A model generated the notes under the pieces. That model searched no databases. It worked only from the letters and a program-made list of their open reading frames with translations, and had not been told where the DNA came from. This document shows positions 7,349 to 31,960 of a stretch of DNA of 64,000 nt, piece by piece. This stretch comes from Allobosea robiniae (lineage in GTDB: Bacteria; Pseudomonadota; Alphaproteobacteria; Rhizobiales; Beijerinckiaceae), in NCBI RefSeq assembly GCF_900102525.1, contig NZ_FNBZ01000001.1, positions 1,054,001-1,118,000 on the forward strand. The letters are read 5' to 3'. Both the position numbers and the translations under genes were made by a program. Position 1 is the stretch's first letter. Every line of letters begins with the position of its first letter.

Positions 7349-7422
7349 GAGAGGGTCCCCCCTTTGCTGGTGTCGATGCATCAACAACGCGGGACGGGCG
7401 CTTTGGTTTCATCGCGCGGGCC

Positions 7423-8508
7423 TCACGCCATGCCCTCGGCCGCGAGAAGCTTCGCCTGATGCTCGGCCGTGAGTGCATCGATGATCTCGTCGAGCACCAG
7501 CCCCTGCATCATCTCGTCGAGCTTGTAGAGCGTCAGGTTGATGCGGTGGTCGGTCACGCGCCCCTGCGGGAAATTATAGGTGCGGATGCGTTCCGAGCGA
7601 TCGCCCGAACCGACCTGCGAACGTCGGTCCGCCGAGCGCTCGGCATCGATGCGCAGGCGCTCCATGTCGAAGAGCTTGGCGCGCAGCAATTCATAGGCCC
7701 GCGCCTTGTTCTTGTGCTGGGAGCGCTCGTCCTGGACCAGAACGACGGTGTTGGTCGGGATATGGGTCAGGCGCACCGCCGATTCGGTCTTGTTGACGTG
7801 CTGGCCGCCGGCGCCGCCGGAGCGCAGCGTGTCGGTGCGGATGTCGGTCTCGTTGAGGGTGACATCGACATCGGTGGCGAGCGGCAGCGTCGCCACCGTC
7901 GCAGCCGAGGTGTGGATGCGCCCGCTCGCCTCGGTATCCGGCACGCGCTGAACGCGGTGGACGCCGGATTCGAACTTGAGACGGGCATAGACGCCGCGGC
8001 CGTTGATCTCGGCGATGACCTCCTTGTAACCGCCGGCCGTGCCCTCGCTCTCGGAGAGGACATCGAGGCTCCAGCCCTTCTGGGCGGCGTGGCGCTGATA
8101 CATGCGCAGGAGGTCACCGGCGAAGAGCGCGGCCTCGTCGCCGCCGGTGCCCGCCCTGATCTCGAGAATGACGCCGCGCTCGTCGGCGGCATCCTTCGGC
8201 AGCAGGGCGACGAGGATCTCGCGGGCGCGCGCCTCGATCTCGGCGCGGGCGATGTCGCGCTCCTCATAGGCGAGATCGCGGAACTCGGAATCGGTCGCGG
8301 GATCGGCGATCAGCGCCTCCGCCTCGTCCAGCGAGATCTGCGCCTGCCGCCAGGAGGCGATCGCCGCGACCACGGGATCGAGCTCGGCCAGTTCCTTCGC
8401 GAGCTCGACGGTGCGCGCCGCCTCGGTGGCATGATTGATCTCGTCGGTCGCGGCGGCATGGCGCGCCACGATGACGTCGAGACGATCCTGAGGGAGCTGG
8501 AGGGACAT
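7423..8508 (-). CDS. prfA: peptide chain release factor 1
   Basis: RF1 recognises UAA and UAG stop codons and triggers peptidyl-tRNA hydrolysis. The 361-residue protein has the codon-recognition PxT motif (PDT, 190-192, within [15 protein letters not shown]) and the catalytic GGQ (234-236) in [13 protein letters not shown]. PxT in place of SPF identifies RF1 over RF2. The chosen ATG gives [13 protein letters not shown], the usual N-terminus; an extension to 8553 has no ribosome site. Its GGQ is the expected substrate of PrmC, encoded downstream. Confidence 0.96.
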
Positions 8509-8564
8509 CAAATGAACTCGTGAAACAAAAGGGAAAAGCGGCAGCGGCTGCAAAAGCAGCGTCG

Positions 8565-10832
8565 CTAGACCGGGACCTTGAACTCGGTCGCGAAGGCGGC
8601 CAGTTGCGGGCGCAGATTGGTGGCGCCTTCCGGAGAGGCCAGCATCCAGTCCATGCGCTCGCGCAGTTTGCCGGCGTCGAGCGCGCGCAACATCGCCTTG
8701 ACCGGTCCGATCGAGGCGGCCGACATCGAGAAGCCGCGATAGCCCAGGCCGATCAGGGCCATGGTTTCCAGCGGCTTGCCGCCCATCTCGCCACAGACGG
8801 TGACGGGGCAGCCGGTCTCGGCAGCAGCCTCGATGATACGCCTGAGAGCCCTGAGGGCGCCGACGCCGAGCGGATCGAAGCGGTCGGCGACACGCTTGTT
8901 CTCACGATCGGCAGCGAAGAGGAACTGCATGAGGTCGTTGGTGCCGATCGACAGGAAATCCGCCTCGCGCGCGATCTCCCGCAGCTCGAACAACAGCGAC
9001 GGCACCTCGACCATGACGCCGACCCTGAGATCGCGCGGCGGGGCAACGCCCTGCTTCTCCAGCATGGCCTGCTCGCGACGGATGATCATGCGGGCGCGGC
9101 GGAACTCCTCGGTGGTCGCGACCATCGGCAGCATGATCTTGAGATCCCGCCCCGCCCCGGCCCGCAGCATCGCGCGCACCTGCGCCCGGAGCAGCCGCGG
9201 CTTGTCGAGGCCGATGCGGATCGCGCGCCAGCCGAGCGCCGGGTTCTCCTCCTCGACCCGCTCCATATAGGGCAGCACCTTGTCGCCGCCGATATCGAGG
9301 GTGCGGAAGGTGACCGGCAATTCCGCCGCAGCCTCCAGCACGGCCGCATAGAGCGCCTGCTGCTCGGCGGTGGTCGGCATGTGCTGCGCCACCATGAACT
9401 GCAATTCGGTGCGGAACAGGCCGATGCCGGAGGCGGCCGTCGCCTCGATGTTCGGCATGTCGACGATCAGGCCGGCATTGATCTGCAGGGTGATGTCGAC
9501 CCCGTCGCGGGTGACGGCCGGAAGCTCCTTGAGCTTCTGGTACTGCTTCTGCTTGCGGGCGCGCAGCCGCGCCTTGTCCTTGTAGGCGTTCTCGACGTCG
9601 GGCTGCGGGCGGATCTGCACCTCGCCCGCCTGACCATCGACGATGATGGCATCACCCGCCTCGACCAGCGCGGTCGCATTGACGACCTCGCCGACGGCGG
9701 GGATGCCGAGCGCGCGGGCGACGATCGCGATATGGCTGGTCGGCCCACCCTCCTCCAGCACGAGCCCGCGCAGATGGGCGCGATCGTAGTCCAGCAGCGC
9801 CGCCGGGCCCATCGAGCGGGCGACGAGGATGGCATTCTCCGGCAGGTTCTCGCGGGCGACGCCGTTCGCCTTGCCGACCAGCGTGCGCAGCAGCCGGTTG
9901 GCGAGATCGTCGAGATCGTGCAGCCGCTCGCGCAGATAGGGGTCTGTCTGGCGCAGCATCTTGGCGCGGGTGTCGGACTGGACGCGCTCGACCGCCGCCT
10001 CGGCTGTGAGTCCGGTCAGCACGACCTCGCGCATGCGGCGCAGCCAGCCCTGGTCATGGGCGAACATGCGGAAGGTCTCGAGAACGTCGCGATGCTCGCC
10101 GGTATGGGCGACGTCGCCGCGCTCGACCAGTTCGTCGATCGAGGCCCGCATCTCGCCGATTGCCGCTTCGAGCCGGCCGACCTCGGCAGCCGGATTCTCG
10201 GCGATGAGATTGGTGATCGCGACGCGCGGCTCGTGCAGCACGACATGGCCGAGGCCGACGCCATCGGCCAGCGCCACGCCGACGCCATGGATCGGACGAT
10301 CGAGGCCAATCGAGGCGCCGGGCGCCGCCAGCGACTTGAGGCCGCCGGCCGCGATCATCTCCGCCATCAGCATGGCGGTGGTCTGAAGGGTCTCGATCTC
10401 GTCCTCGGAATAGAGCCGCGAGGCCCGATTCTGGATGACGAGCACGCCCATCACGGCGCCGCCGCGCAGAATCGGCACGCCGAGGAAGGAGCGGTAGACC
10501 TCTTCGCCCGTCTCCGGACGGTAGGAGAAGGAAGGGTGAGCCTGCGCGTCCGACAGCGCCAGCGGCTCGGCCTCGCTCGCGATCAGGCCGACGAGGCCCT
10601 CGCCCGCCCGCATGGTGGTGAGGTGGACCGCCTCGCGGTTGAGGCCTTCGGTCGCGTAGAGTTCAAGCGAGCCGTCCTCGCGCAGGACGTAGACGGAGCA
10701 GACTTCGGCGACGAGATTGCCAGCGATCAGGACGACGAGACGGTCCAGCCGCTCCTGCGGGCTGATCGATGCCGCCATGACCTCGCGGAGACGGCGCAAC
10801 AGAACGCCCGGTCCTCCGAGAGCGCCTCGCAT
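8565..10832 (-). CDS. ptsP: PEP-protein phosphotransferase PtsP (EI-Ntr)
   Basis: First enzyme of the nitrogen-related phosphotransferase system; it passes phosphate from PEP to NPr and then EIIA-Ntr, tuning potassium, carbon and nitrogen responses. The N-terminal third is a GAF domain (about 20-160, with [17 protein letters not shown]). The phosphohistidine is H367 in [15 protein letters not shown], and the PEP-binding barrel has [31 protein letters not shown] and the catalytic-cysteine CGEMGG near the end. The start [19 protein letters not shown] is preceded by GGAGGG; an upstream ATG (10865) in the same frame lacks one. About 755 residues, normal for the family. Confidence 0.94.
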
Positions 10833-11013
10833 CGATCTCAGCCCTCCGCCCGCCTCCTCAGCCATCGACGATACGATGCCTGTCCAGACCTGAGTCGCCC
10901 ACTCCGGTCATGCTGCCTTCTAGCGACCAAAGACCTTATTCGGCAAGGGCCGCGAACAGGGTCCGTAGCATCACCCCAAGATTTCCGTCGTTTTTGGGCT
11001 CGAGGCCCAAGTC

Positions 11014-12579
11014 TCAGGGCCGCACCAAAACGAGATGAGAGGCCTCGGCGGCACTCCGCTTCCGGCGCGATCCTGCCGACATCTTGCGGACACCGGCTTC
11101 CGGGGCAGCCGATGCCGCGGCCGATGTCTCGCCCCGGCCCGTCCGCCGCGCACCGGCACGTGGTTCCTTGCGCTCTTTACCCACGGCCAATGCCTCGGCC
11201 GCCCCGGCCTCACCGGACAGGGCCAGCAGGTATTGCCGCGTCCACCAGTCGATATCGGTAGCCGCGATGATGGCGTAGAGCTTCTCGAAGCGGCGGATGC
11301 GCTCGGTCTTCGGCATGGCGAGCGCGGTACGGATCGCTTCCGCCACCTCATGGGAATCGAAGGGATTGACGATCAGCGCCTCGCTCATCTGCTGGGCCGC
11401 GCCGGCGAAGCGCGAGAGCACGAGCACGCCCGGATCGGCCGGGTCCTGCGCCGCGATATATTCCTTGGCGACGAGATTCATGCCGTCGCGCATCGGCGTG
11501 ACCAGGCCGACCTGGGCGCGGCGGTAGAAGCCGGCCAGCGCCTTGCGCGAATAGGCCTTCTTGACCACACGGATCGGCGTCCAGTCGAATTCGCCGAGCT
11601 GGGCGTTGAGACGGCCGGCAACTTCGTCGGACTGGCGATCCAGATCCGCATATTCGGGCACGTCGCTGCGCGAGGGCGGGGCAATCTGCAGCAGGCTGAC
11701 CCGCCCGCGCTCCTCCGGATGGTCGCGCAGGAACTCGCCGAACGCCTCCAGCCGCTGGACGATGCCCTTGGAGTAGTCGAGCCGGTCGACCCCGATGACG
11801 AGCTTGCGCTGACCGAGGGATTCACGCGTGGCGCGCAGCGGCGTCGTCGCCTGGCGGGCGGAGGCGGCGGCGAGCCGGCGGAAGCCCTCCACATCGATCC
11901 CGATCGGGAAGGCCCGCACCGTGGTCTCGCGCGGGCCCAGCCGCACGCGCCTGCCGTCGGAGCGGGCGCCGCAAAGGGAGACGAGTCCGTCGATCAGGTT
12001 GCGCGCATCGACCTCGGTCTGCATCCCGACAAGGTCGTAAGCTGCCATGGTGCGGATCAGCGTCGCGCTGAACGGCAAGACGCCCATGATCTCGGCCGCC
12101 GGCCAGGGGATATGGTGGAAATAGCCGATGCGGTTGGTGACGCCGCGCCGGCGCAGTTCCGCCGCCAGCGGGATCAGGTGGTAATCATGGATCCAGATCA
12201 TGTCGTCGGGCTTGATCAGCCCGGCAAGCGCGCGGGCAAAGCGCCGATTGACGCCGAGATAGCCCATATAGTCGCTGCGCTGGAACTCGGTGAGGCCGAG
12301 ACGATAGTGCATCAGCGGCCAGAGCGCCCGGTTCGAGAAGCCGAGATAGTAGCTCTGGCGCTCGGCCTCGCTCAGATCGGTCACGGCATAGGTCACATTG
12401 CCATGCTCGACCTGCCTGACCGGCGCCGGCGCGCCCTCGCTGACCGCCCCGCTCCAGCCGAACCACAGACCGCCGCGCTGCTCCAGCGCTTCGCGCAGGG
12501 CGACCGCCAGCCCCCCGGCCATCACCTTTTCATGGCGATCGGGAATCGTGACGCGATTGGAAACGATGACAAGACGCAT
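11014..12579 (-). CDS. otsA: trehalose-6-phosphate synthase OtsA
   Basis: A GT20 glycosyltransferase that joins UDP-glucose and glucose-6-phosphate to trehalose-6-phosphate, the first step of osmo/stress-protectant synthesis. 521 residues from MRLVIVSNRV. Seen: the glycine loop AGGLA (21-25), HDYH (131-134), GYFHHIPWPA, GVDRLDYSKGI and RDGMNLVAKEY, all typical substrate-binding motifs. The last 60 or so residues are a basic Ala/Arg/Ser tail beyond the GT20 fold. The frame is open to 12723, but only the chosen ATG gives the family N-terminus. It diverges from otsB, with candidate stress promoters between. Confidence 0.96.
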   Translation of the reverse strand: MRLVIVSNRVTIPDRHEKVMAGGLAVALREALEQRGGLWFGWSGAVSEGAPAPVRQVEHGNVTYAVTDLSEAERQSYYLGFSNRALWPLMHYRLGLTEFQRSDYMGYLGVNRRFARALAGLIKPDDMIWIHDYHLIPLAAELRRRGVTNRIGYFHHIPWPAAEIMGVLPFSATLIRTMAAYDLVGMQTEVDARNLIDGLVSLCGARSDGRRVRLGPRETTVRAFPIGIDVEGFRRLAAASARQATTPLRATRESLGQRKLVIGVDRLDYSKGIVQRLEAFGEFLRDHPEERGRVSLLQIAPPSRSDVPEYADLDRQSDEVAGRLNAQLGEFDWTPIRVVKKAYSRKALAGFYRRAQVGLVTPMRDGMNLVAKEYIAAQDPADPGVLVLSRFAGAAQQMSEALIVNPFDSHEVAEAIRTALAMPKTERIRRFEKLYAIIAATDIDWWTRQYLLALSGEAGAAEALAVGKERKEPRAGARRTGRGETSAAASAAPEAGVRKMSAGSRRKRSAAEASHLVLVRP

Positions 12580-20668: not shown

Positions 20669-21208
20669 TCAGGCGATACCCGCATACCAGGCGAGGACAT
20701 AGGCGAGCGTGCCGACCGCCATCGGCACGAGAGGATTGACCTTGGAGCGATAGGTCACCAGCGCCGTCGCCGCCGTGATCGCATAGCCAATGACGCCGGC
20801 ATCAGCGGCCAGCGTCGCAACGACGCCGCTCGCCAGCATCAGGCCGAGCGCGATCGGCACCAGCGCAAGCGTGGCGATCCGGACCACGCGATGGCCACCG
20901 AAGCGCTGGAGACCGCGGCTCGAGGCGAGCGCCAGCAGGCAGGAGGGCAGCAAGAGGGCCGTCGTCGCGACCAGTAGGCCGGCGGTGCCGGCGACATGCC
21001 AGCCGATGACGCTGCCGAGCATGATGTTGGGGCCGGGCGCGGTCTGCGCGATGGCGAAGAGGCGGGCAAAGGTCGGTGCATCCATCCAGCCAAGGATTTC
21101 GACGACCTGGCGGTGGATTTCCGGCACCACGGCATTGGCCCCGCCGATCGCCATGAGCGAGATCGTGCCGAAAGTGACGACCAACTGGAAGAAGACGCCG
21201 CGCTCCAT
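20669..21208 (-). CDS. chrA: chromate transporter, short-chain CHR subunit 2
   Basis: A 179-residue membrane protein with one CHR domain: FGTISLMAIGGANAVVPEIHRQVV, then AIAQTAPGPNIMLGSVIGWHVAG, followed by hydrophobic helices. It is the second half of a split ChrA; its ATG overlaps the TGA of the first half (TGATG at 21208), so the two are translationally coupled and probably work as a heterodimer. The family exports chromate by proton exchange, though many short-chain pairs are uncharacterised. Confidence 0.88.
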   Translation of the reverse strand: MERGVFFQLVVTFGTISLMAIGGANAVVPEIHRQVVEILGWMDAPTFARLFAIAQTAPGPNIMLGSVIGWHVAGTAGLLVATTALLLPSCLLALASSRGLQRFGGHRVVRIATLALVPIALGLMLASGVVATLAADAGVIGYAITAATALVTYRSKVNPLVPMAVGTLAYVLAWYAGIA

Positions 21209-23752: not shown

Positions 23753-24976
23753 TCAGATGACGTTGGCCTCCTTGAGCGGCCTGCCCTCAACGATGCGCGC
23801 GTGGCCGAGATCGGCAAGGTCAAGCGCGCGATAGCGGCCATGCGCGATATGCTCGGCAAGGCCACGCCCGACCGCCGGAGACTGCTGCAGGCCGTGGCCT
23901 GAGAAGCCGTTGGCGAGATAGAGATTGGGCAGGCCGACCGCCGGGCCGATGATGGCGTTATGGTCGAGCCCGCACATGTCGTAGGGACCGGCCCAGGCGC
24001 GGCCGGGCTTGATCTGCTCGAAGGCCGGGATGCGGGTGGCGAGCGAGGGCCAGACCACCTCCTCGAAGAAGCCCCAGTCGACATCCTCGGCCGCCGGGTC
24101 GTTCTCGATCCATTCGACATCCTGCTCCGGCGTCAGCGGCGAGCAGCTGCCGATGAAGAGCTGGCCTTCCGCCGTGCGCTTGCCCTCCTGCCGGCACCAG
24201 GCGCCGGTCGTGTCGATCAGGAGCGGGCAGCCATCGACATCGCCCTTGCAAGTGAAGGTGAAGACATAGCGCTTCATCGACTTCACCGGGATTTCAATCC
24301 CTGCCGTCGCGGCGAGCTTCGCGCCATGAGTGCCGCTGGCGTTGACCACCGCACCGCAGGCGATGCGGCTGCCATCGGCGAGCTCGACAGCGGTGACGCG
24401 TCCGCCGTCCGTGACATAGCGGGCAACCTCGCCCTGCCGGTATTCGACGCCGAGGCTGCGCGCCTTCTTGCGGAAAGCCTGAAGCAGCGCCCAGCCGTCG
24501 AACCAGCCCTCGCCGCTGACGCCGAAGGTGCCGCAGGCAAGATCCTCGGTGTTGAGCCAGGGGAAACGCTGCTTCAGCGTCGCGGGATCGTAAAGGGCGA
24601 TATCGGCACCCTCAGTGGCTTGCAGCTTCTGGTTGGCCTCGAGGATGGGGGCGCCGGCCTCGCTCGCGAGATAGAGATAGCCGCCTTCATGCAGGTCGAT
24701 CGCGGGAACCTCACCGTCGACAGCCAGGTGCTTCCCGATATTGCGCAGGAAATCGATGCCGAAGAGCGAGATGCGGATGTTCACCGCGCTGGAGAATTGC
24801 TGGCGGATCGAGGCCGCCGAGAGCGCCGAGGCAGAGAAGCGATAGGTCGGGTCCTTCTCGATCACCACGACCTTGCCGGTGAAGCCGGGATCGGCGGCGA
24901 GATGATAGGCGACGGAGGAGCCGATCGCGGCGCCACCGCAGATCACGACATCGGCGCTTTCGGAGACGGGCGGCAT
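23753..24976 (-). CDS. FAD-dependent amine/amino-acid oxidoreductase (DAO family)
   Basis: A 407-residue protein with the Rossmann FAD motif VVICGGAAIGSSVAYHLA at residues 10-27, FAD-contact ASALSAASIRQQF, and the C-terminal NLYLANGFSGHGLQQSPAVGRGLAEHI that closes the flavin site. The family includes sarcosine/glycine oxidases, D-amino-acid dehydrogenases and pipecolate oxidases. LysR, ALDH7 and glutaryl-CoA dehydrogenase genes nearby make an L-pipecolate or related cyclic-amine oxidase attractive, but that is an inference from context. Followed by dinB. Confidence 0.85.
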   Translation of the reverse strand: MPPVSESADVVICGGAAIGSSVAYHLAADPGFTGKVVVIEKDPTYRFSASALSAASIRQQFSSAVNIRISLFGIDFLRNIGKHLAVDGEVPAIDLHEGGYLYLASEAGAPILEANQKLQATEGADIALYDPATLKQRFPWLNTEDLACGTFGVSGEGWFDGWALLQAFRKKARSLGVEYRQGEVARYVTDGGRVTAVELADGSRIACGAVVNASGTHGAKLAATAGIEIPVKSMKRYVFTFTCKGDVDGCPLLIDTTGAWCRQEGKRTAEGQLFIGSCSPLTPEQDVEWIENDPAAEDVDWGFFEEVVWPSLATRIPAFEQIKPGRAWAGPYDMCGLDHNAIIGPAVGLPNLYLANGFSGHGLQQSPAVGRGLAEHIAHGRYRALDLADLGHARIVEGRPLKEANVI

Positions 24977-25070: not shown

Positions 25071-25985
25071 TCAGTTTGCCGGCGCGCATTCCCCGAGCAG
25101 CCAATCCCGGAAGGCGATCACGGTCGGCAGATTGGCCTTCTCCTCGGGATAGACGAGATAATAGCCCTCCTTGCCGGTCACCGGCCGGTCGATCGGGATG
25201 ACCAGCGAGCCGGAGCGCAACTCCTCCTCGACCAGGAAACGCGGCACGATGGCGAGCCCTAGGCCCGCCACTGCCGCCTGCGCGATCATGGCGAACTGCT
25301 CGAAGCGCGGGCCCATCAAGGCCCGTTCGGGAGCGAGACCCTGCTGCTCCAGCCAGTTCGCCCAGGCACGCGGCCGTGTCGATTGCTGCAGCAGCGGCGC
25401 ACGCAGCATGTCGGCCGCCTCCGTGATCCCGACGCGCGCCAGCAGGGAGGGCGCAGCGACGGGCACCACCTCCTCGCCCATCAAGCGATGCAGCCTTGCG
25501 CCCGGCCAGCTATCGGCGCCGAAATGCACGGCGGCGTCGACCTGCTCGCGGGCAAAGTCGAAGGGCACCAGCTTGGTGGTGAAGTTGATGGTGATGCCGG
25601 GATGAGCCTCGATGAAGCGCGGCAGGCGCGGGATCAGCCAGCGCGTGCCGAAGGTCGGCAGGATCGCGAGATTAAGCACGCCGGCCGCACCGCGAAAGGC
25701 CATGGCGGAGACGGTCGCGGCTGCGAGACGGGACAGGCCGTCACGGATGTCGTTGGCATAGGCCGCGCCCGCCGCCGTCAGGCTGACACGCTTCTTGACG
25801 CGCTCGAACAGGCTGACGCCGAGCACCTTTTCGAGATGCGCGACCTGCCGGCTCACCGCGCCCTGCGTCAGGTTCAGCTCCTCAGCTGCGCGCGTGAAGC
25901 TGCCATGCCGGGCCGCCGCCTCGAAGGCGGCGAGCGCGGACAGCGAAGGCACCGAGAGCCGGCCGGGAACCAGAATATCATCCAT
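25071..25985 (-). CDS. LysR family regulator, GcvA-like
   Basis: A 304-residue regulator with N-terminal winged helix (LSALAAFEAAARHGSFTRAAEELNLTQGAVSRQVAHLEKVLG, residues 14-55) and a type-2 periplasmic-binding-like effector domain. It lies between the FAD oxidoreductase gene (downstream, same strand, 94 bases) and the divergent ALDH7 gene, so it is placed to regulate both. An imperfect inverted repeat at 25992-26011 beside its start codon fits an autoregulatory site. Possible ligands are pipecolate or aminoadipate intermediates, by context only. Confidence 0.93.
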   Translation of the reverse strand: MDDILVPGRLSVPSLSALAAFEAAARHGSFTRAAEELNLTQGAVSRQVAHLEKVLGVSLFERVKKRVSLTAAGAAYANDIRDGLSRLAAATVSAMAFRGAAGVLNLAILPTFGTRWLIPRLPRFIEAHPGITINFTTKLVPFDFAREQVDAAVHFGADSWPGARLHRLMGEEVVPVAAPSLLARVGITEAADMLRAPLLQQSTRPRAWANWLEQQGLAPERALMGPRFEQFAMIAQAAVAGLGLAIVPRFLVEEELRSGSLVIPIDRPVTGKEGYYLVYPEEKANLPTVIAFRDWLLGECAPAN

Positions 25986-26011: not shown

Positions 26012-26150
26012 CATATCGGTTGCCGCCGCCCCAAGAAAGAGGGCATTCTGCAGGCCTCAAGCGCGGCGGCCTCCGGTTCCCGCGCCTTTATGTCATGCGC
26101 CCTAGGGCATGCGCCCTTTGGCTCCCGCTCGCGACCGCTGGAAGACAAAG

Positions 26151-27671
26151 ATGGCCACATCCCTGCCGAAAGACACGCTCGCCCTGCTCAAGCGCCTCGG
26201 CGTTTCCGAAGCGTCTTACGCCGATGCCGGCCTGTCGGCCCGTTCGCCGATCACCGGCGAGACCGTCGTGACCCTGCGCGAGACGTCGCCGGCCGAGGCC
26301 GAGGCCGCGATCGGCCGGGCCCAGTCCGCCTATCTCGCCTGGCGCAAGGTGCCGGCGCCGCGCCGCGGCGAGTTCGTCCGCCTGCTCGGCGAAGAGCTGC
26401 GCGCCGCCAAGACCGATCTCGGCCTGCTGGTGACGCTGGAAGCCGGCAAGGTCACCTCCGAGGGCCTCGGCGAGGTCCAGGAGATGATCGACATCTGTGA
26501 CTTCGCCGTCGGCCTGTCGCGCCAGCTCTACGGCCTGACCATCGCCACCGAGCGCCCGAACCATCGCATGATGGAGACCTGGCATCCGATCGGCATCTGC
26601 GGCGTGATCTCGGCCTTCAACTTCCCGGTCGCGGTCTGGTCGTGGAACGCGGCGCTCGCCTTCGTCTGCGGCGACAGCGTCGTCTGGAAGCCCTCCGAGA
26701 AGACCCCGCTAACCGCGCTCGCCGTGCAGGCCATCGTCGAGAAGACGATGAAGCGCTTCGGCCCCGAAGCGCCGATCGGCCTGTCGGAAGTCCTGATCGG
26801 CGGCCGCGAACTCGGCGACATCCTGGTCCAGGATCATCGCGTCCCGGTCGTCTCGGCCACGGGCTCGACCCGCATGGGCAAGGAAGTCGGCCAGAAGCTG
26901 GCCGCGCGTTTCGCCCGCGCCATCCTCGAGCTCGGCGGCAACAACGCCGCGATCGTCGCTCCCTCCGCCGATCTCGATATCGCCCTGCGCGGCATCGCCT
27001 TCGCGGCGATGGGCACAGCCGGCCAGCGCTGCACCACTTTGCGCCGCCTGATCGTGCATGAAAGCGTCTATGACGCGCTCGTGCCGAAGCTCGCCAAGGT
27101 ATACGGCTCCGTGAAGATCGGCGATCCCCGCGAGGCCGGCGTGCTGGTCGGCCCGCTGGTCGACGAGGCCGCCTATCAGGGCATGCAGAAGGCGCTCTCC
27201 GAGGCCAAGGCCGAGGGCGGCAAGGTCCATGGCGGCGAGAAGGTCGATGTCGGTTCCGGCGGCTTCTATGTCCGCCCGGCGCTGGTCGAGATGCCCAAGC
27301 AGTGCGGCCCGGTCGAGCGCGAGACCTTCGCCCCGATCCTCTATGTGATGAAGTACAAGTCCATCGACGAGGCGATCTCGATCCAGAACGCGGTCGGCGC
27401 CGGCCTGTCCTCTTCGATCTTCACGCTCAACATGCGCGAGGCCGAGCTGTTCGTCTCCGACGAGGGTTCGGATTGCGGCATCGCCAACGTGAATATCGGC
27501 CCCTCGGGCGCCGAGATCGGCGGCGCCTTCGGCGGCGAGAAGGAGACGGGCGGCGGCCGCGAGGCCGGCTCCGACGCCTGGAAGGCCTATATGCGCCGCG
27601 CCACCAACACCGTGAACTACGGCACCACGCTGCCGCTGGCTCAGGGCGTCAGCTTCGACGTGGATGCGTGA
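26151..27671 (+). CDS. amaB: aminoadipate-semialdehyde / piperidine-6-carboxylate dehydrogenase (ALDH7)
   Basis: A 506-residue aldehyde dehydrogenase of the ALDH7/antiquitin branch, which oxidises alpha-aminoadipate semialdehyde (in equilibrium with piperidine-6-carboxylate) to aminoadipate in lysine breakdown. Catalytic Glu is E260 in ILELGGNN; catalytic Cys is C294 in MGTAGQRCTTLRRL. The stretches WHPIGICGVISAFNFPVAVW and FGGEKETGGGREAGSD are typical of this branch. The ATG of MATSLPKD has GGAAGACAAAG before it; the upstream frame is rejected. Followed by glutaryl-CoA dehydrogenase, which supports the pathway. The symbol amaB is the Pseudomonas name and an inference for this organism. Confidence 0.88.
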   Translation: MATSLPKDTLALLKRLGVSEASYADAGLSARSPITGETVVTLRETSPAEAEAAIGRAQSAYLAWRKVPAPRRGEFVRLLGEELRAAKTDLGLLVTLEAGKVTSEGLGEVQEMIDICDFAVGLSRQLYGLTIATERPNHRMMETWHPIGICGVISAFNFPVAVWSWNAALAFVCGDSVVWKPSEKTPLTALAVQAIVEKTMKRFGPEAPIGLSEVLIGGRELGDILVQDHRVPVVSATGSTRMGKEVGQKLAARFARAILELGGNNAAIVAPSADLDIALRGIAFAAMGTAGQRCTTLRRLIVHESVYDALVPKLAKVYGSVKIGDPREAGVLVGPLVDEAAYQGMQKALSEAKAEGGKVHGGEKVDVGSGGFYVRPALVEMPKQCGPVERETFAPILYVMKYKSIDEAISIQNAVGAGLSSSIFTLNMREAELFVSDEGSDCGIANVNIGPSGAEIGGAFGGEKETGGGREAGSDAWKAYMRRATNTVNYGTTLPLAQGVSFDVDA

Positions 27672-27682
27672 CACAGAACGTC

Positions 27683-27716
27683 ATTCCCGGGCGCCTGATA
27701 GCGGCGGCCCGGGAAT
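27683..27716. repeat. REP-like palindrome, family B
   Basis: Ten-base arms ATTCCCGGGC and GCCCGGGAAT flank a 14-base loop directly after the ALDH7 stop. It shares its CCCGGG core with the palindrome at 29011-29033. It is one of two palindromes in this 127-base gap. Confidence 0.8.
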
Positions 27717-27740
27717 CTCATGACAAGAAGACACTGGTTT

Positions 27741-27773
27741 CCGTCATGGTCGGGTCAAGCCCGACCATGACGG
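27741..27773. repeat. REP-like palindrome, family A (longest copy)
   Basis: Fourteen-base arms (CCGTCATGGTCGGG and its complement) with a 5-base loop TCAAG. Same core as 618-640 and 29060-29082. It lies just upstream of the glutaryl-CoA dehydrogenase start. Confidence 0.85.
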
Positions 27774-27798
27774 TCTGAATATCAGGGAGACGAACACC

Positions 27799-28995
27799 AT
27801 GGCCGGCAGCCACAAGCTCGCGAAGTTCACCTGGGACGATGCCTATCTGCTCGACGAGCAGCTGAACGAGGACGAGCGGCTGATCCGCGACACGGCCCGC
27901 GCCTATGCGCAGGAGAAGCTCGCTCCCCGCGTCACCGAAGCCTATCTCGACGAGAAGACCGATCGCTCGATCTTCAACGAAATGGGCGAGCTCGGCCTGC
28001 TCGGCGTCACCGTTCCCGAGGATTACGGCTGCGCCGGCGCCAATTACGTCTCCTACGGGCTCGTCGCCCGCGAGGTCGAGCGCATCGACTCGGGCTATCG
28101 CTCGATGATGTCGGTGCAGTCCTCGCTCGTGATGTACCCGATCTACGCCTATGGCAGCGAAGAGCAGCGCAAGAAGTACCTGCCCAAGCTCGGCTCGGGC
28201 GAATGGGTCGGCTGCTTCGGCCTGACCGAGCCGGATGCCGGTTCCGATCCGGGCGGCATGAAGACCCGCGCCGAGAAGGTTGCCGACGGCTACAAGCTGA
28301 CCGGCTCCAAGATGTGGATCTCGAACTCGCCGATCGCCGACGTCTTTGTCGTCTGGGCGAAGTCATCAGCGCATGACAACCAGATCCGCGGCTTCATCCT
28401 CGAAAAGGGCATGAAGGGCCTGTCCGCGCCGAAGATCGGCGGCAAGCTTTCGCTCCGCGCCTCGATCACCGGCGAGGTCGTCATGGACGGCGTCATCGTG
28501 CCGGAAGAGAACCTGCTGCCGAACGTCTCGGGCCTCTCCGGCCCGTTCGGCTGCCTCAACCGCGCCCGCTACGGCATTTCCTGGGGCGTGATGGGCGCCG
28601 CCGAAGATTGCTTCCACCGCGCCCGCCAGTACGGGCTCGACCGCAAGCAGTTCAACAAGCCGCTGGCCCAGACGCAGCTCTACCAGAAGAAGCTCGCGGA
28701 CATGCTGACCGAGATCACGCTCGGCCTGCAGGGCTCGCTCCGCGTCGGGCGCCTGCTCGACGACGGCAAGATGGCCCCGGAGATGATCTCGCTGGTCAAG
28801 CGCAACAATTGCGGCAAGGCGCTCGACATCGCTCGCCAGGCCCGCGACATGCATGGCGGCAACGGCATCCAGATCGAGTATCAGGTGATGCGCCACGCCG
28901 CGAACCTCGAGACGGTGAACACCTACGAGGGCACGCATGACGTCCATGCGCTGATCCTCGGCCGCGCGATCACCGGCCTGCAGGCGTTCTTCTGA
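27799..28995 (+). CDS. gcdH: glutaryl-CoA dehydrogenase
   Basis: A 398-residue FAD acyl-CoA dehydrogenase that oxidises and decarboxylates glutaryl-CoA to crotonyl-CoA in lysine and tryptophan catabolism. The N-terminus [36 protein letters not shown] and the [20 protein letters not shown] flavin loop match GCDH closely. The catalytic base is E377 in [20 protein letters not shown]. The upstream CAGGGAGACGAACACC supplies the ribosome site. The CoA transferase gene follows after a pair of palindromes, so glutarate activation and oxidation are encoded together. Confidence 0.94.
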
Positions 28996-29010
28996 GCGCC
29001 GTCAGCCGTC

Positions 29011-29033
29011 ATGCCCGGGCTTGACCCGGGCAT
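29011..29033. repeat. REP-like palindrome, family B
   Basis: Arms ATGCCCGGG and CCCGGGCAT around CTTGA, just after the gcdH stop. Confidence 0.8.
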
Positions 29034-29059
29034 CTCGTCCCACGCGAACCTCCCCGGAG

Positions 29060-29082
29060 ATGGTCGGGTCAAGCCCGACCAT
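29060..29082. repeat. REP-like palindrome, family A
   Basis: Arms ATGGTCGGG and CCCGACCAT around TCAAG, third copy of the core seen at 618 and 27741. It is 21 bases before the CaiB-type gene start. Confidence 0.82.
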
Positions 29083-29103
29083 GACGCCCGAGTCGAACCC
29101 GCC

Positions 29104-30291
29104 ATGACGACCTCCCCTCTTGCCGGCCTGCGCGTCCTCGAACTGGCGCGCATCCTCGCAGGTCCCTGGATCGGCCAGCTCCTGGCCGATCTCGGCGCCG
29201 ATGTCGTCAAGGTCGAGGCGCCCGAGGGCGACGACACCCGCAAATGGGGCCCGCCCTTCGTCGAGGGCACCGGCGACGAGCATCTCTCCGCCGCCTATTT
29301 CCACGCCGCCAATCGCGGCAAGCGCTCGATCACCGCCGATTTCCGCACGCCGGAGGGGCAGGCGCTGGTCCGGCGCCTCGCCGCTCATGCCGATGTGGTG
29401 ATCGAGAATTTCAAGGTCGGCGGCCTCAGCAAGTACGGGCTCGACGCGGCCTCGCTGCGCAAGAAATTCCCGCGCCTGGTCTATTGCTCGGTCACCGGCT
29501 TCGGGCAGGACGGCCCCTATGCGCCGCGCGCCGGCTACGACTTCCTCGTCCAGGGCATGGGCGGGGCGATGTCGATCACCGGCGAGCCTGAGGGCGCGCC
29601 GATGAAGGCGGGCTATGCGGTCGCGGACATCTATACCGGGCTCTATGCCACGGTCGGCATCCTCTCGGCTTTGCGCCAGCGCGACGCCACCGGCGAGGGT
29701 GCGACGCTCGATCTCGCGTTGCTCGACTCGCAGGTCGCGGTGCTCGGCAACCAGGCGATGAACTATCTCGTCGGCGGCAATCCCCCGCCGCGGCTCGGCA
29801 ACGCCCACCCGAACATCGTGCCCTATGACGTGTTCCCGGTCGCGGACGGCCATATCATCATCGCGACCGGCAATGACGCGCAGTGGCGCAAGCTCTGCGA
29901 AGTGCTGGGCGAGCCGACGCTGGCCGACCATCCCGACTATCTCGACAACAAATCGCGCGTGAAGAACCGCGTCGCGTTGACCGCCAAACTGCACCTGCTC
30001 TGCCAGCGTTATGCCAAGCTCGATCTGCTGGCCGCGCTGGAGAAGGTCGGCGTGCCCGCCGGCCCGATCAACGATATCGGCGAGGTCTTCGCCGATCCGC
30101 AGGTGATCGCGCGCGGCGTCCGAGTCGACCTGTCGAGCGCGGCTGCGAAAGCGGGCAGCATTCCGACTGTCGCCTCGCCCATCGTCATGAACGGCGTGCG
30201 GCAGGTGGCAGGAAGTCCGAGCCCACGGCTCGGCGAACATGCCGACGACATCTTGAACGACCCGGCCTGGGGAGGGCCGCAGCATGGCTAA
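29104..30291 (+). CDS. CaiB/BaiF family CoA transferase, probably glutarate-activating
   Basis: A 395-residue class III CoA transferase: LRVLELARILAGPWIGQLLADLGADVVKVEAPEGDD (residues 9-44), ANRGKRSITADFRTPEGQ, CSVTGFGQDGPYAPRAGYDFLVQGMGGAMSITGEP and the LALLDSQVAVLGNQAMNYL region with the expected catalytic Asp. Members move CoA between carboxylic acids; the close human relative is succinyl-CoA:glutarate CoA transferase. Standing between gcdH and the thiamine enzyme, it most likely makes glutaryl-CoA. The start MTTSPLAGLRVLEL is chosen; the frame upstream runs back through the palindromes. Confidence 0.88.
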   Translation: MTTSPLAGLRVLELARILAGPWIGQLLADLGADVVKVEAPEGDDTRKWGPPFVEGTGDEHLSAAYFHAANRGKRSITADFRTPEGQALVRRLAAHADVVIENFKVGGLSKYGLDAASLRKKFPRLVYCSVTGFGQDGPYAPRAGYDFLVQGMGGAMSITGEPEGAPMKAGYAVADIYTGLYATVGILSALRQRDATGEGATLDLALLDSQVAVLGNQAMNYLVGGNPPPRLGNAHPNIVPYDVFPVADGHIIIATGNDAQWRKLCEVLGEPTLADHPDYLDNKSRVKNRVALTAKLHLLCQRYAKLDLLAALEKVGVPAGPINDIGEVFADPQVIARGVRVDLSSAAAKAGSIPTVASPIVMNGVRQVAGSPSPRLGEHADDILNDPAWGGPQHG

Positions 30292-31960
30292 TCGCACTGG
30301 CGGGCAGATCCTCGTCGACCAGCTTCTGATCCACGGCGCCACCGACGCCTTCTGCGTGCCGGGCGAGAGCTATCTCGCCGTGCTCGACGCGCTGCACGAC
30401 GCCTCGATGAAGGTCACCATCTGCCGGGCCGAAGGCGGCGCCTGCATGATGGCGGAAGCCGCAGGCAAGCTCACCGGCAAGCCCGGCATCTGCTTCGTGA
30501 CGCGCGGTCCCGGCGCCACCAACGCCTCGCCCGGCATCCATATCGCCGACCAGGACTCGACCCCGCTCATCCTCTTCGTCGGCCAGATCGACGGCAGCAT
30601 GCGCGAGCGCGAGGCCTTCCAGGAGCTCGACTACCGTGCCGTCTTCGGCACCATGACCAAATGGGCGACCGAGATCGACGATGCCGCGCGCATCCCGGAG
30701 ATCATCAGCCGCGCCTTCCATGTCGCGACCTCCGGTCGCCCCGGCCCGGTCGTGATCGCGCTGCCCGAGGACGTGCTGACCGATCTCGCGGATGTCGCCG
30801 ACGCCGAGCCCTATCAGGTCACGGAGCAGCACCCTGCCCCGGCGCAGATGGCTGATCTCGCCAAGCGCTTTGCTGCTGCCAAGTCGCCGGTCGCGATCCT
30901 CGGCGGCTCGCGCTGGAGCCCGGAGGCAATCGCCGATTTTCAGGCCTTTGCCGAGCGTTTCGACCTGCCCGTCGCAGTCTCGTTCCGCCGGCAGATGCTG
31001 TTCCCGGCCGATCATCCGAACTTCGCGGGCGATCTCGGCATCGGTCCCAACCCGAAGCTGCTCGCCCGCATCAAGGAGAGCGATCTCGTCCTGCTGGTCG
31101 GCGGGCGCCTCTCGGAGATGCCGAGCCAGTCCTACACCCTGTTCGGCATCCCGAATCCGGGCCGGCCGCTGGTGCATGTCCATGCCGATCCGGAAGAGCT
31201 CGGCCGGGTCTATCGCCCGACGCTGGCGATCAATGCCTCTCCCGCCGGCTTCTGCGCCGCGCTCAAGACGATCGAGCCGCCCAAGGCCCCGGCCTGGAAG
31301 GGCGCCGGCGCTGCCGCGCATGAAGCCTATATCGCCTGGAGCGAGCAGCCGGCGCCCGTGCCCGGCGAATTCCATCCCGGCGAGATGGTGCGCTGGCTGC
31401 GCAGCCAGCTCCCCGAGGACGCCATCCTATGCAACGGCGCCGGAAATTACGCGACCTGGGTGCATCGCTTCCATCGCTTCAACAAATTCGCGACGCAGCT
31501 CGCACCGACCTGCGGCTCGATGGGCTATGGCGTTCCGGCGGCGATCGGCGCCAAGCGGCTCTTCCCGGAACGCACCGTCATCGCCTTCGCCGGCGACGGT
31601 TGCTTCCTGATGAACGGCCAGGATTTCGCGACGGCCGTGCAATACGACCTGCCCGTCATCGTCGTCGTCGTCGATAACGGCATGTACGGCACGATCCGCA
31701 TGCATCAGGAGCGCGAATACCCCGGCCGCGTCTCGGCGACGACGCTGAAGAACCCGGATTTCGCTGCTTATGCCAAGGCCTTCGGCGGCCATGGCGAGCG
31801 CGTCGAGAAGACCTCGGAGTTCGCTCCGGCCTTCGAGCGTGCGGTGAAGAGCGGCAAGCCCGCGATCATCCACTGCCTGCTCGATCCCGAGGCGATCACG
31901 CCTGCCAAGTCGCTCTCGACAATCCGCGCCGAGGCCTTCGCGGCTCAGAGGAAAGACTAA
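30284..31960 (+). CDS. thiamine-diphosphate-dependent decarboxylase/synthase-like enzyme
   Basis: A 558-residue enzyme of the acetolactate synthase / benzoylformate decarboxylase superfamily. The conserved cofactor-activating Glu is E50 in CRAEGGACMMAEAAGKLTG; the metal/ThDP motif starts GDGCFLMNGQDFATA at 437 and runs to VVVDNGMYG. A middle domain (about 190-330) lies between. Its ATG overlaps the CoA-transferase stop by 8 bases, with GGGAGGG before it, so the two are translationally coupled. The substrate is not determined; a 2-oxo acid of the lysine/glutarate route, such as 2-oxoadipate, is suggested by context only. Its TAA interlocks with the stop of the convergent cytochrome b561 gene. 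Confidence 0.86.
   Translation: MANRTGGQILVDQLLIHGATDAFCVPGESYLAVLDALHDASMKVTICRAEGGACMMAEAAGKLTGKPGICFVTRGPGATNASPGIHIADQDSTPLILFVGQIDGSMREREAFQELDYRAVFGTMTKWATEIDDAARIPEIISRAFHVATSGRPGPVVIALPEDVLTDLADVADAEPYQVTEQHPAPAQMADLAKRFAAAKSPVAILGGSRWSPEAIADFQAFAERFDLPVAVSFRRQMLFPADHPNFAGDLGIGPNPKLLARIKESDLVLLVGGRLSEMPSQSYTLFGIPNPGRPLVHVHADPEELGRVYRPTLAINASPAGFCAALKTIEPPKAPAWKGAGAAAHEAYIAWSEQPAPVPGEFHPGEMVRWLRSQLPEDAILCNGAGNYATWVHRFHRFNKFATQLAPTCGSMGYGVPAAIGAKRLFPERTVIAFAGDGCFLMNGQDFATAVQYDLPVIVVVVDNGMYGTIRMHQEREYPGRVSATTLKNPDFAAYAKAFGGHGERVEKTSEFAPAFERAVKSGKPAIIHCLLDPEAITPAKSLSTIRAEAFAAQRKD

Follow-up and report, generated by a model that had tools for sequence, protein, structure and literature searches.

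A thiamine diphosphate enzyme encoded with amaB and gcdH in Allobosea robiniae as a candidate 2-oxoadipate decarboxylase in the place of HglS

Introduction

To our knowledge, two ends have been described for 2-oxoadipate when lysine is broken down via 2-aminoadipate, namely HglS and the 2-oxoadipate/2-oxoglutarate dehydrogenase, a multi-enzyme complex that yields glutaryl-coenzyme A (CoA) directly, and the pathway collections known to us list these two, and not a thiamine diphosphate (ThDP)-dependent decarboxylase, for 2-oxoadipate. In the present study, we analysed a window of 64,000 nucleotides from Allobosea robiniae (contig NZ_FNBZ01000001.1, positions 1,054,001 to 1,118,000; coordinates below are those of the window), in which amaB, gcdH, a gene for a CaiB-type CoA-transferase and a gene for a ThDP enzyme of the family NF006052/PRK08199 stand in a row. 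We propose, with a probability of roughly two in three, that this ThDP enzyme acts in the pipecolate/2-aminoadipate branch of lysine catabolism, where it would decarboxylate 2-oxoadipate non-oxidatively; its substrate, its product and the fluxes through it are what we infer from sequence comparison. The comparison of hundreds of genomes suggests that the enzyme would perform the step that is performed elsewhere by a wholly different iron enzyme.

According to the available part of its description, HglS is an Fe(II)/O2 enzyme that converts 2-oxoadipate to D-2-hydroxyglutarate, which leads to 2-oxoglutarate (PMC7286885). An engineered route with kivD and gabD leads from alpha-ketoadipic acid to glutaric acid, as outlined in an excerpt of a review (PMC12861294). 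In Phaeobacter, the pipecolate and 2-aminoadipate routes of lysine were shown and 2-oxoadipate could not be detected, according to an excerpt of that study (PMC5653290), and the word 'oxoadipate' does not occur in the available part of PMC9007349. The literature searched, with subscription papers and preprints outside its scope, contained no paper naming a 2-oxoadipate decarboxylase, which is not proof of novelty, and no mention of PRK08199.

Results

The source genome is Bosea-like and alphaproteobacterial (5.28 Mb), and its ThDP protein is 95% identical to that of Bosea thiooxidans and 96% identical to a homologue in a Bosea metagenome-assembled genome. As the initial annotation had described, the four genes follow one another on the (+) strand, in the order amaB (26151–27671; a second in-frame ATG of this open reading frame (ORF) lies at 26109), gcdH (27799–28995), the CaiB-type transferase gene (29104–30291) and the ThDP gene (30284–31960). 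The start of the ThDP gene is coupled to the stop of the transferase gene by an overlap of exactly 8 bases, ATGGCTAA, at 30284–30291 on the (+) strand. The gaps between amaB and gcdH (27746–27772) and between gcdH and the transferase gene (29060–29086) carry identical copies of a 27-base palindrome, ATGGTCGGGTCAAGCCCGACCATGACG.

The main sample comprised 377 Pseudomonadota genomes, 100 of which held a total of 107 amaB loci, and genes within 8 kb of each other were counted as linked. The ThDP gene was linked to amaB at 10 of the 107 loci, compared to approximately 0.2 expected (binomial P of approximately 9e-15, kinship ignored), and the ten genomes represent seven genus codes, three of which occur twice. 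HglS was linked to amaB at 21 of the loci, and at none of the 107 did both genes lie beside the same amaB; HglS and the ThDP gene are exchanged for one another at this position. Furthermore, HglS was found nowhere in the ten genomes with a ThDP–amaB pair and was found in 42 of the 90 other genomes with amaB (Fisher's test, 0.0046, kinship ignored); short-type HglS matches were entered only for genomes holding amaB. The window's genome, which is 99.99% complete, showed no match to HglS (PF07063) and none to the CsiD route of glutarate hydroxylation (PF08943). Among 47 genomes whose ThDP gene is linked to amaB or gcdH, HglS was found in one, that of Achromobacter denitrificans, in which the link is to gcdH. 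In a second sample of 241 alphaproteobacterial genomes (the class sample), 117 held a ThDP gene over the cut-off, 62 held amaB and 41 held both, within 8 kb of each other in 4 of the 41. Several genomes carry PF07063 hits of approximately 80–96 bits beside amaB (e.g., G120:C1:482030, G410:C1:4481454 and G405:C1:3301997); this divergent subfamily is probably also a lysine-pathway HglS.

Because the product of HglS is D-2-hydroxyglutarate, HglS clusters should carry a dehydrogenase for that compound rather than gcdH or a CoA-transferase gene, and the reverse is expected for a decarboxylase route. Among 46 ThDP-type amaB loci, gcdH was present in 12 and the transferase gene in 14, and none held a homologue of the PF01565/PF02913 oxidase; the corresponding numbers among 13 HglS-type loci were 0, 0 and 6. 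The ThDP-type counts omit the duplicates L001, L210 and L223, and hence the window's own locus. Of the 28 HglS-linked amaB loci in the two samples, 14 were read and 13 classed as HglS-type; the fourteenth, L251, did not reach the BLAST limit and, like three others, was assigned to 'none'. The PF01565/PF02913 protein, a flavin adenine dinucleotide (FAD)-linked oxidase, is a putative D-2-hydroxyglutarate dehydrogenase on the basis of its Pfam domains and its place. When the loci were counted per label (20 ThDP-type and 13 HglS-type), with three labels of the window's genus (Bosea) merged and repeats of one genus possibly remaining among labels with genus codes, CaiB was present in 7 versus 0 (Fisher's test, 0.027) and the oxidase in 0 versus 6 (0.0015); gcdH was present in 6 versus 0, and before merging in 8 of 22 ThDP-type labels (p = 0.015). 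In the 377 genomes, the transferase gene occurred at 4 of the 10 ThDP–amaB pairs, these four being two pairs of same-genus genomes, compared to none of the 13 HglS-type loci (p = 0.024). Aminotransferase and saccharopine-dehydrogenase-like genes were present in loci of both types. Upstream of 2-oxoadipate, the module seems to stay the same, with the exchange affecting the 2-oxoadipate step.

We also read the 80 loci whose ThDP genes are most similar to that of the window, chosen without regard to their neighbours and with close relatives over-represented. The ThDP gene adjoins a same-strand transferase, amaB, gcdH or aminotransferase gene in 45 of them, and the grouping noted by the initial annotation recurs in relatives more often than chance would allow. 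The order amaB–gcdH–CaiB–ThDP is shared by Bosea, Chelatococcus and most Alsobacter, and other lineages show other combinations: saccharopine-dehydrogenase-like–amaB–ThDP in Microvirga, amaB–FAD oxidase–solute-binding protein–aminotransferase–ThDP next to a LysR gene in Acidovorax, LysR with ThDP–amaB in Azospirillum, LysR with ThDP–gcdH in Achromobacter and Bordetella, and CaiB–ThDP in Mesorhizobium and Phyllobacterium. More distant ThDP proteins occur in similar company: at 52% ThDP identity, L108 and L225 show the consecutive genes saccharopine-dehydrogenase-like–ThDP–amaB, and at 55%, L119 shows gcdH–CaiB–ThDP. Of the 46 ThDP-type loci, 34 have a homologue of the FAD oxidoreductase encoded near the window's operon no more than 8 kb from amaB, and 27 have a LysR homologue within that distance.

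The product of amaB, an ALDH7 protein, scored 810.6 bits on NF050084 (cut-off, 730), which places it among the L-piperidine-6-carboxylate (P6C; 2-aminoadipate semialdehyde) dehydrogenases, and its matches include solved alpha-aminoadipic semialdehyde dehydrogenases and antiquitin. GcdH matched solved glutaryl-CoA dehydrogenases over its full length (3gnc, E 5e-189; 3eom, E 1.6e-188; 1sir, E 1.8e-176) and belongs with them, though it reached only 218 bits on the NCBIfam model NF045552 (glutaryl-CoA dehydrogenase Acd; cut-off, 470). The CaiB-type (family III, PF02515) protein is probably a succinyl-CoA:glutarate CoA-transferase; NF052585 (succinate–glutarate CoA-transferase) was its best-scoring NCBIfam family at 582.4 bits, below the cut-off of 750, and the transferase adjoining the ThDP gene in Phyllobacterium likewise stayed below it at 712.5 bits. 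We also considered an oxalate-type pair of formyl-CoA transferase and oxalyl-CoA decarboxylase. It was set aside because the transferase scored best as the glutarate type, far under the cut-offs of the formyl-CoA-transferase models, and because the ThDP protein is matched less well by oxalyl-CoA decarboxylases than by acetolactate synthases.

The ThDP protein scored 913.3 bits on NF006052/PRK08199 (cut-off, 539), residues 2–553 aligning with positions 6–557 of the model, which has 559 positions, and is thus a member of a family described only as 'thiamine pyrophosphate protein', without a named function. Its domains PF02776, PF00205 and PF02775 are the three thiamine pyrophosphate domains of the acetolactate-synthase/decarboxylase-fold class, to which it belongs. 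The AlphaFold model (predicted local distance difference test score, 95.4) has the acetolactate-synthase fold and matches the acetolactate synthases 4rjj, 9zgl and 5d6r and the HKA synthase BbmA (8x3x) at 24–29% identity. The initial annotation had pointed to a cofactor-activating glutamate and a GDG motif, and both were found to be invariant in an alignment of 53 family members: Glu50 (codon 30431–30433), cofactor-activating by its position, and GDG437–439, which N465 completes to the GDG...N ThDP/Mg motif (31592–31678). The protein is not a member of the acetolactate synthase family TIGR00118 (335 bits; cut-off, 538) and lies under the cut-off of every acetolactate-synthase model among the best 25 of 56 matches. 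In an alignment to the yeast acetohydroxyacid synthase 1jsc, read by eye, Arg74, Arg109 and Arg235 stand in place of Ser, Thr and Gln, and Arg472 and His474 of the stretch R472-M473-H474 (31697–31705) replace Thr and Trp. All five residues are invariant in the 53 members. If these candidate residues face the substrate, the pocket would be basic and suitable for an oxo acid with two carboxyl groups. No active-site signature of the lysine-linked members was found, the nine columns checked being invariant throughout the 53. The same genome encodes, at another place, a further ThDP enzyme with 32% identity (G000:C12:132969–136009; L002 and L211), immediately followed by a match to the aldehyde dehydrogenase family.

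NF006052 was over its cut-off in 129 of the 377 Pseudomonadota genomes. For the class sample, the 120 best-scoring places were taken, down to approximately 619 bits, lower ones over the cut-off being left out, and one of them (L205) had no hit over the 40% limit, so that 119 loci were read. A tree was built from 199 of 205 loci, L053, L064, L083, L107, L166 and L196 being omitted for a stop inside the aligned stretch. Linkage to lysine or glutarate genes appeared at several separate places in it, corresponding to 13 changes by parsimony on the 199 rows, and the linked branches of L108, L119 and L192 are only 46–55% identical to the window's protein. Either the ancestral activity was the proposed one and its genes became scattered, or several activities exist within the family, among which a lysine role evolved more than once. 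Unlinked members may differ in function, the family being broader than the pathway. In four Methylobacterium loci (L042, L072, L075 and L077), the ThDP gene lies next to a GntR-like regulator gene (identified by eye) and an aldehyde dehydrogenase gene (PF00171, scoring well below every NCBIfam cut-off listed); the two enzymes are perhaps a decarboxylase–dehydrogenase pair for some oxo acid.

Two genes lie upstream of the four-gene row and divergent from it on the (–) strand. One encodes a LysR-type, GcvA-like regulator (25071–25985; NF008352, 304.1 bits; cut-off, 288), and the other an FAD oxidoreductase of the DAO family (23753–24976; PF01266), a candidate pipecolate oxidase whose substrate is putative. 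Further away on the same strand, the ORF at 21208–21774 matches chromate efflux transporter models under their cut-offs, and the adjoining ORF at 20669–21208 may be the partner half of this candidate transporter.

Discussion

Considering these results, we propose the following scenario. Pipecolate, through the neighbouring FAD oxidase, or saccharopine, through a dehydrogenase-like gene elsewhere in the genome, would give piperideine-6-carboxylate/aminoadipate semialdehyde, which AmaB would oxidise to 2-aminoadipate, and a transaminase would convert this to 2-oxoadipate. 2-Oxoadipate would then bind the ThDP ylide, lose CO2 and depart as glutarate semialdehyde, which an aldehyde dehydrogenase, either an unlinked one of the succinate semialdehyde dehydrogenase (SSADH)/GabD type or AmaB itself, would oxidise to glutarate. 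Finally, the CaiB-type enzyme would form glutaryl-CoA and GcdH would convert it to crotonyl-CoA. Two SSADH genes (TIGR01780) over the cut-off lie elsewhere in the window's genome. The same genome contains, at L208 (G000:C12, 6274–8053), a saccharopine-dehydrogenase-like gene that is 52% identical to the one of Microvirga and follows an Lrp/AsnC-like regulator gene (identified by eye), and Bosea may thus hold both the pipecolate and the saccharopine entries.

The initial annotation had proposed a ThDP-dependent 2-oxoadipate decarboxylase feeding glutarate formation. This core idea gains from the repeated linkage of the ThDP gene to amaB, saccharopine-dehydrogenase-like, aminotransferase, gcdH and glutarate-type CoA-transferase genes and from its occurrence in the position next to amaB that HglS holds elsewhere. 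Two further parts of that proposal need revision. Since ALDH7 scores above the curated P6C dehydrogenase cut-off, it most likely acts before 2-oxoadipate, making 2-aminoadipate, instead of serving as the oxidase of glutarate semialdehyde, though it is a possibility that it oxidises this compound also, or alone. Furthermore, the four genes would not make up the whole route, which also needs a transaminase and a glutarate semialdehyde oxidase, neither of which is among the four.

Several observations weigh against this assignment. No dedicated glutarate semialdehyde dehydrogenase is present inside the operon, and the 2-oxoglutarate dehydrogenase may itself act on 2-oxoadipate. The exclusion of HglS and the ThDP gene beside amaB is not significant alone at the locus level (Fisher's test, 0.20), and it does not extend to whole genomes, since 13 of the 21 genomes with HglS beside amaB carry an NF006052 member elsewhere; we thus rejected a genome-wide mutual exclusion. 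In one genome (L224; G460:C165, approximately 7361–11770), HglS and the ThDP gene lie on the same strand with approximately 1.6 kb, including a LysR-like gene (identified by eye), between them, the only such pair within 10 kb in the 377-genome count, which argues against strict exclusion and not against a shared substrate. The gcdH contrast between the two locus types is borderline (Fisher's test, 0.060), and all seven ThDP–amaB labels bearing gcdH or CaiB either have names belonging to Hyphomicrobiales or are closely related to the window's genome, so that shared descent may explain part of the contrast. In the class sample, 76 of the 117 genomes with NF006052 lack amaB, and the ThDP gene directly adjoins a lysine or glutarate gene at only 4 of 119 loci. 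The candidate pocket residues, moreover, do not distinguish linked from unlinked family members.

The many NF006052 genomes without amaB, together with neighbourhoods such as that of Methylobacterium, would also fit an enzyme that decarboxylates another oxo acid (e.g., 2-oxoglutarate, lysine-derived 2-oxo-6-aminohexanoate or 2-oxo-dicarboxylates broadly), its linkage reflecting a neighbouring branch. We regard this as unlikely, because the ThDP gene occupies the place that HglS, whose substrate is 2-oxoadipate, takes in other amaB loci, and because it is found together with glutarate genes in several lineages. A carboligase resembling acetolactate synthase, joining an oxo acid to a second one or to an aldehyde, would agree with the nearest folds and with the NCBIfam runners-up, mostly acetolactate synthases among the matches listed; it is rendered quite improbable by the scores below every listed acetolactate-synthase cut-off, by the invariant His474 and Arg472 and by the catabolic context. 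An oxidase of the pyruvate-oxidase type, converting 2-oxoadipate directly to glutarate, would explain an operon without its own semialdehyde dehydrogenase, and the profile matches include pyruvate oxidases (277 bits); the best acetolactate synthases match better (347 bits), the score on the pyruvate oxidase PRK08611 is 267 against a cut-off of 742, and such an activity seems very improbable. That the ThDP gene is a passenger without a lysine role beside a known glutarate unit of gcdH and glutarate CoA-transferase, genes co-transcribed as gcdH–gcoT in Pseudomonas putida according to an excerpt of PMC6667623, is likewise very improbable given that it is linked to amaB at loci of Microvirga, Acidovorax and Azospirillum where no homologue of gcdH or the transferase gene over the cut-offs lies nearby.

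If the ThDP enzyme is a 2-oxoadipate decarboxylase, NF006052 would gain a function and could supply the end step for part of the 58 of 100 amaB genomes that lack a PF07063 match. An iron oxygenase and a ThDP enzyme that stand in for each other at the same step would provide a clear example of non-homologous replacement, and natural enzymes would be on hand for glutarate production from 2-oxoadipate. Our judgement is evenly balanced on the broader proposal that the NF006052 family consists of natural 2-oxoadipate decarboxylases and provides a third bacterial fate of 2-oxoadipate, via glutarate semialdehyde, that it repeatedly traded places with HglS at amaB loci, and that AmaB perhaps oxidises two different semialdehydes within the pathway.

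Compared with described systems, the proposed enzyme would share with HglS (DUF1338) its substrate and the removal of CO2, and it does share the place beside amaB and the LysR and aminotransferase genes in the cluster; HglS differs in its fold, in its use of Fe(II) and O2 and in a product that does not lead toward glutaryl-CoA, according to the available part of PMC7286885. A 2-oxoadipate/2-oxoglutarate dehydrogenase complex would also move 2-oxoadipate toward glutaryl-CoA. Bacterial ThDP decarboxylases of amino-acid-derived oxo acids are represented by 5-guanidino-2-oxopentanoate decarboxylase (PRK07524), on whose model the window's protein reached 238 bits against a cut-off of 500. With acetolactate synthases and BbmA, it shares the three-domain ThDP fold and the cofactor residues, and it differs from them in its low identity, in having His474 and Arg472 where the yeast enzyme has Trp and Thr, and in its scores below the listed cut-offs. 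The gcdR–gcdH–gcoT cluster of Pseudomonas putida likewise combines a glutaryl-CoA dehydrogenase, a glutarate CoA-transferase and a LysR regulator, and as described in the available part of PMC6667623 it comprises neither a ThDP enzyme nor amaB. The kivD and gabD route, as the review excerpt presents it, consists of the same two steps, decarboxylation and then oxidation of the semialdehyde; that route was engineered, and in the operon described here it would be natural.

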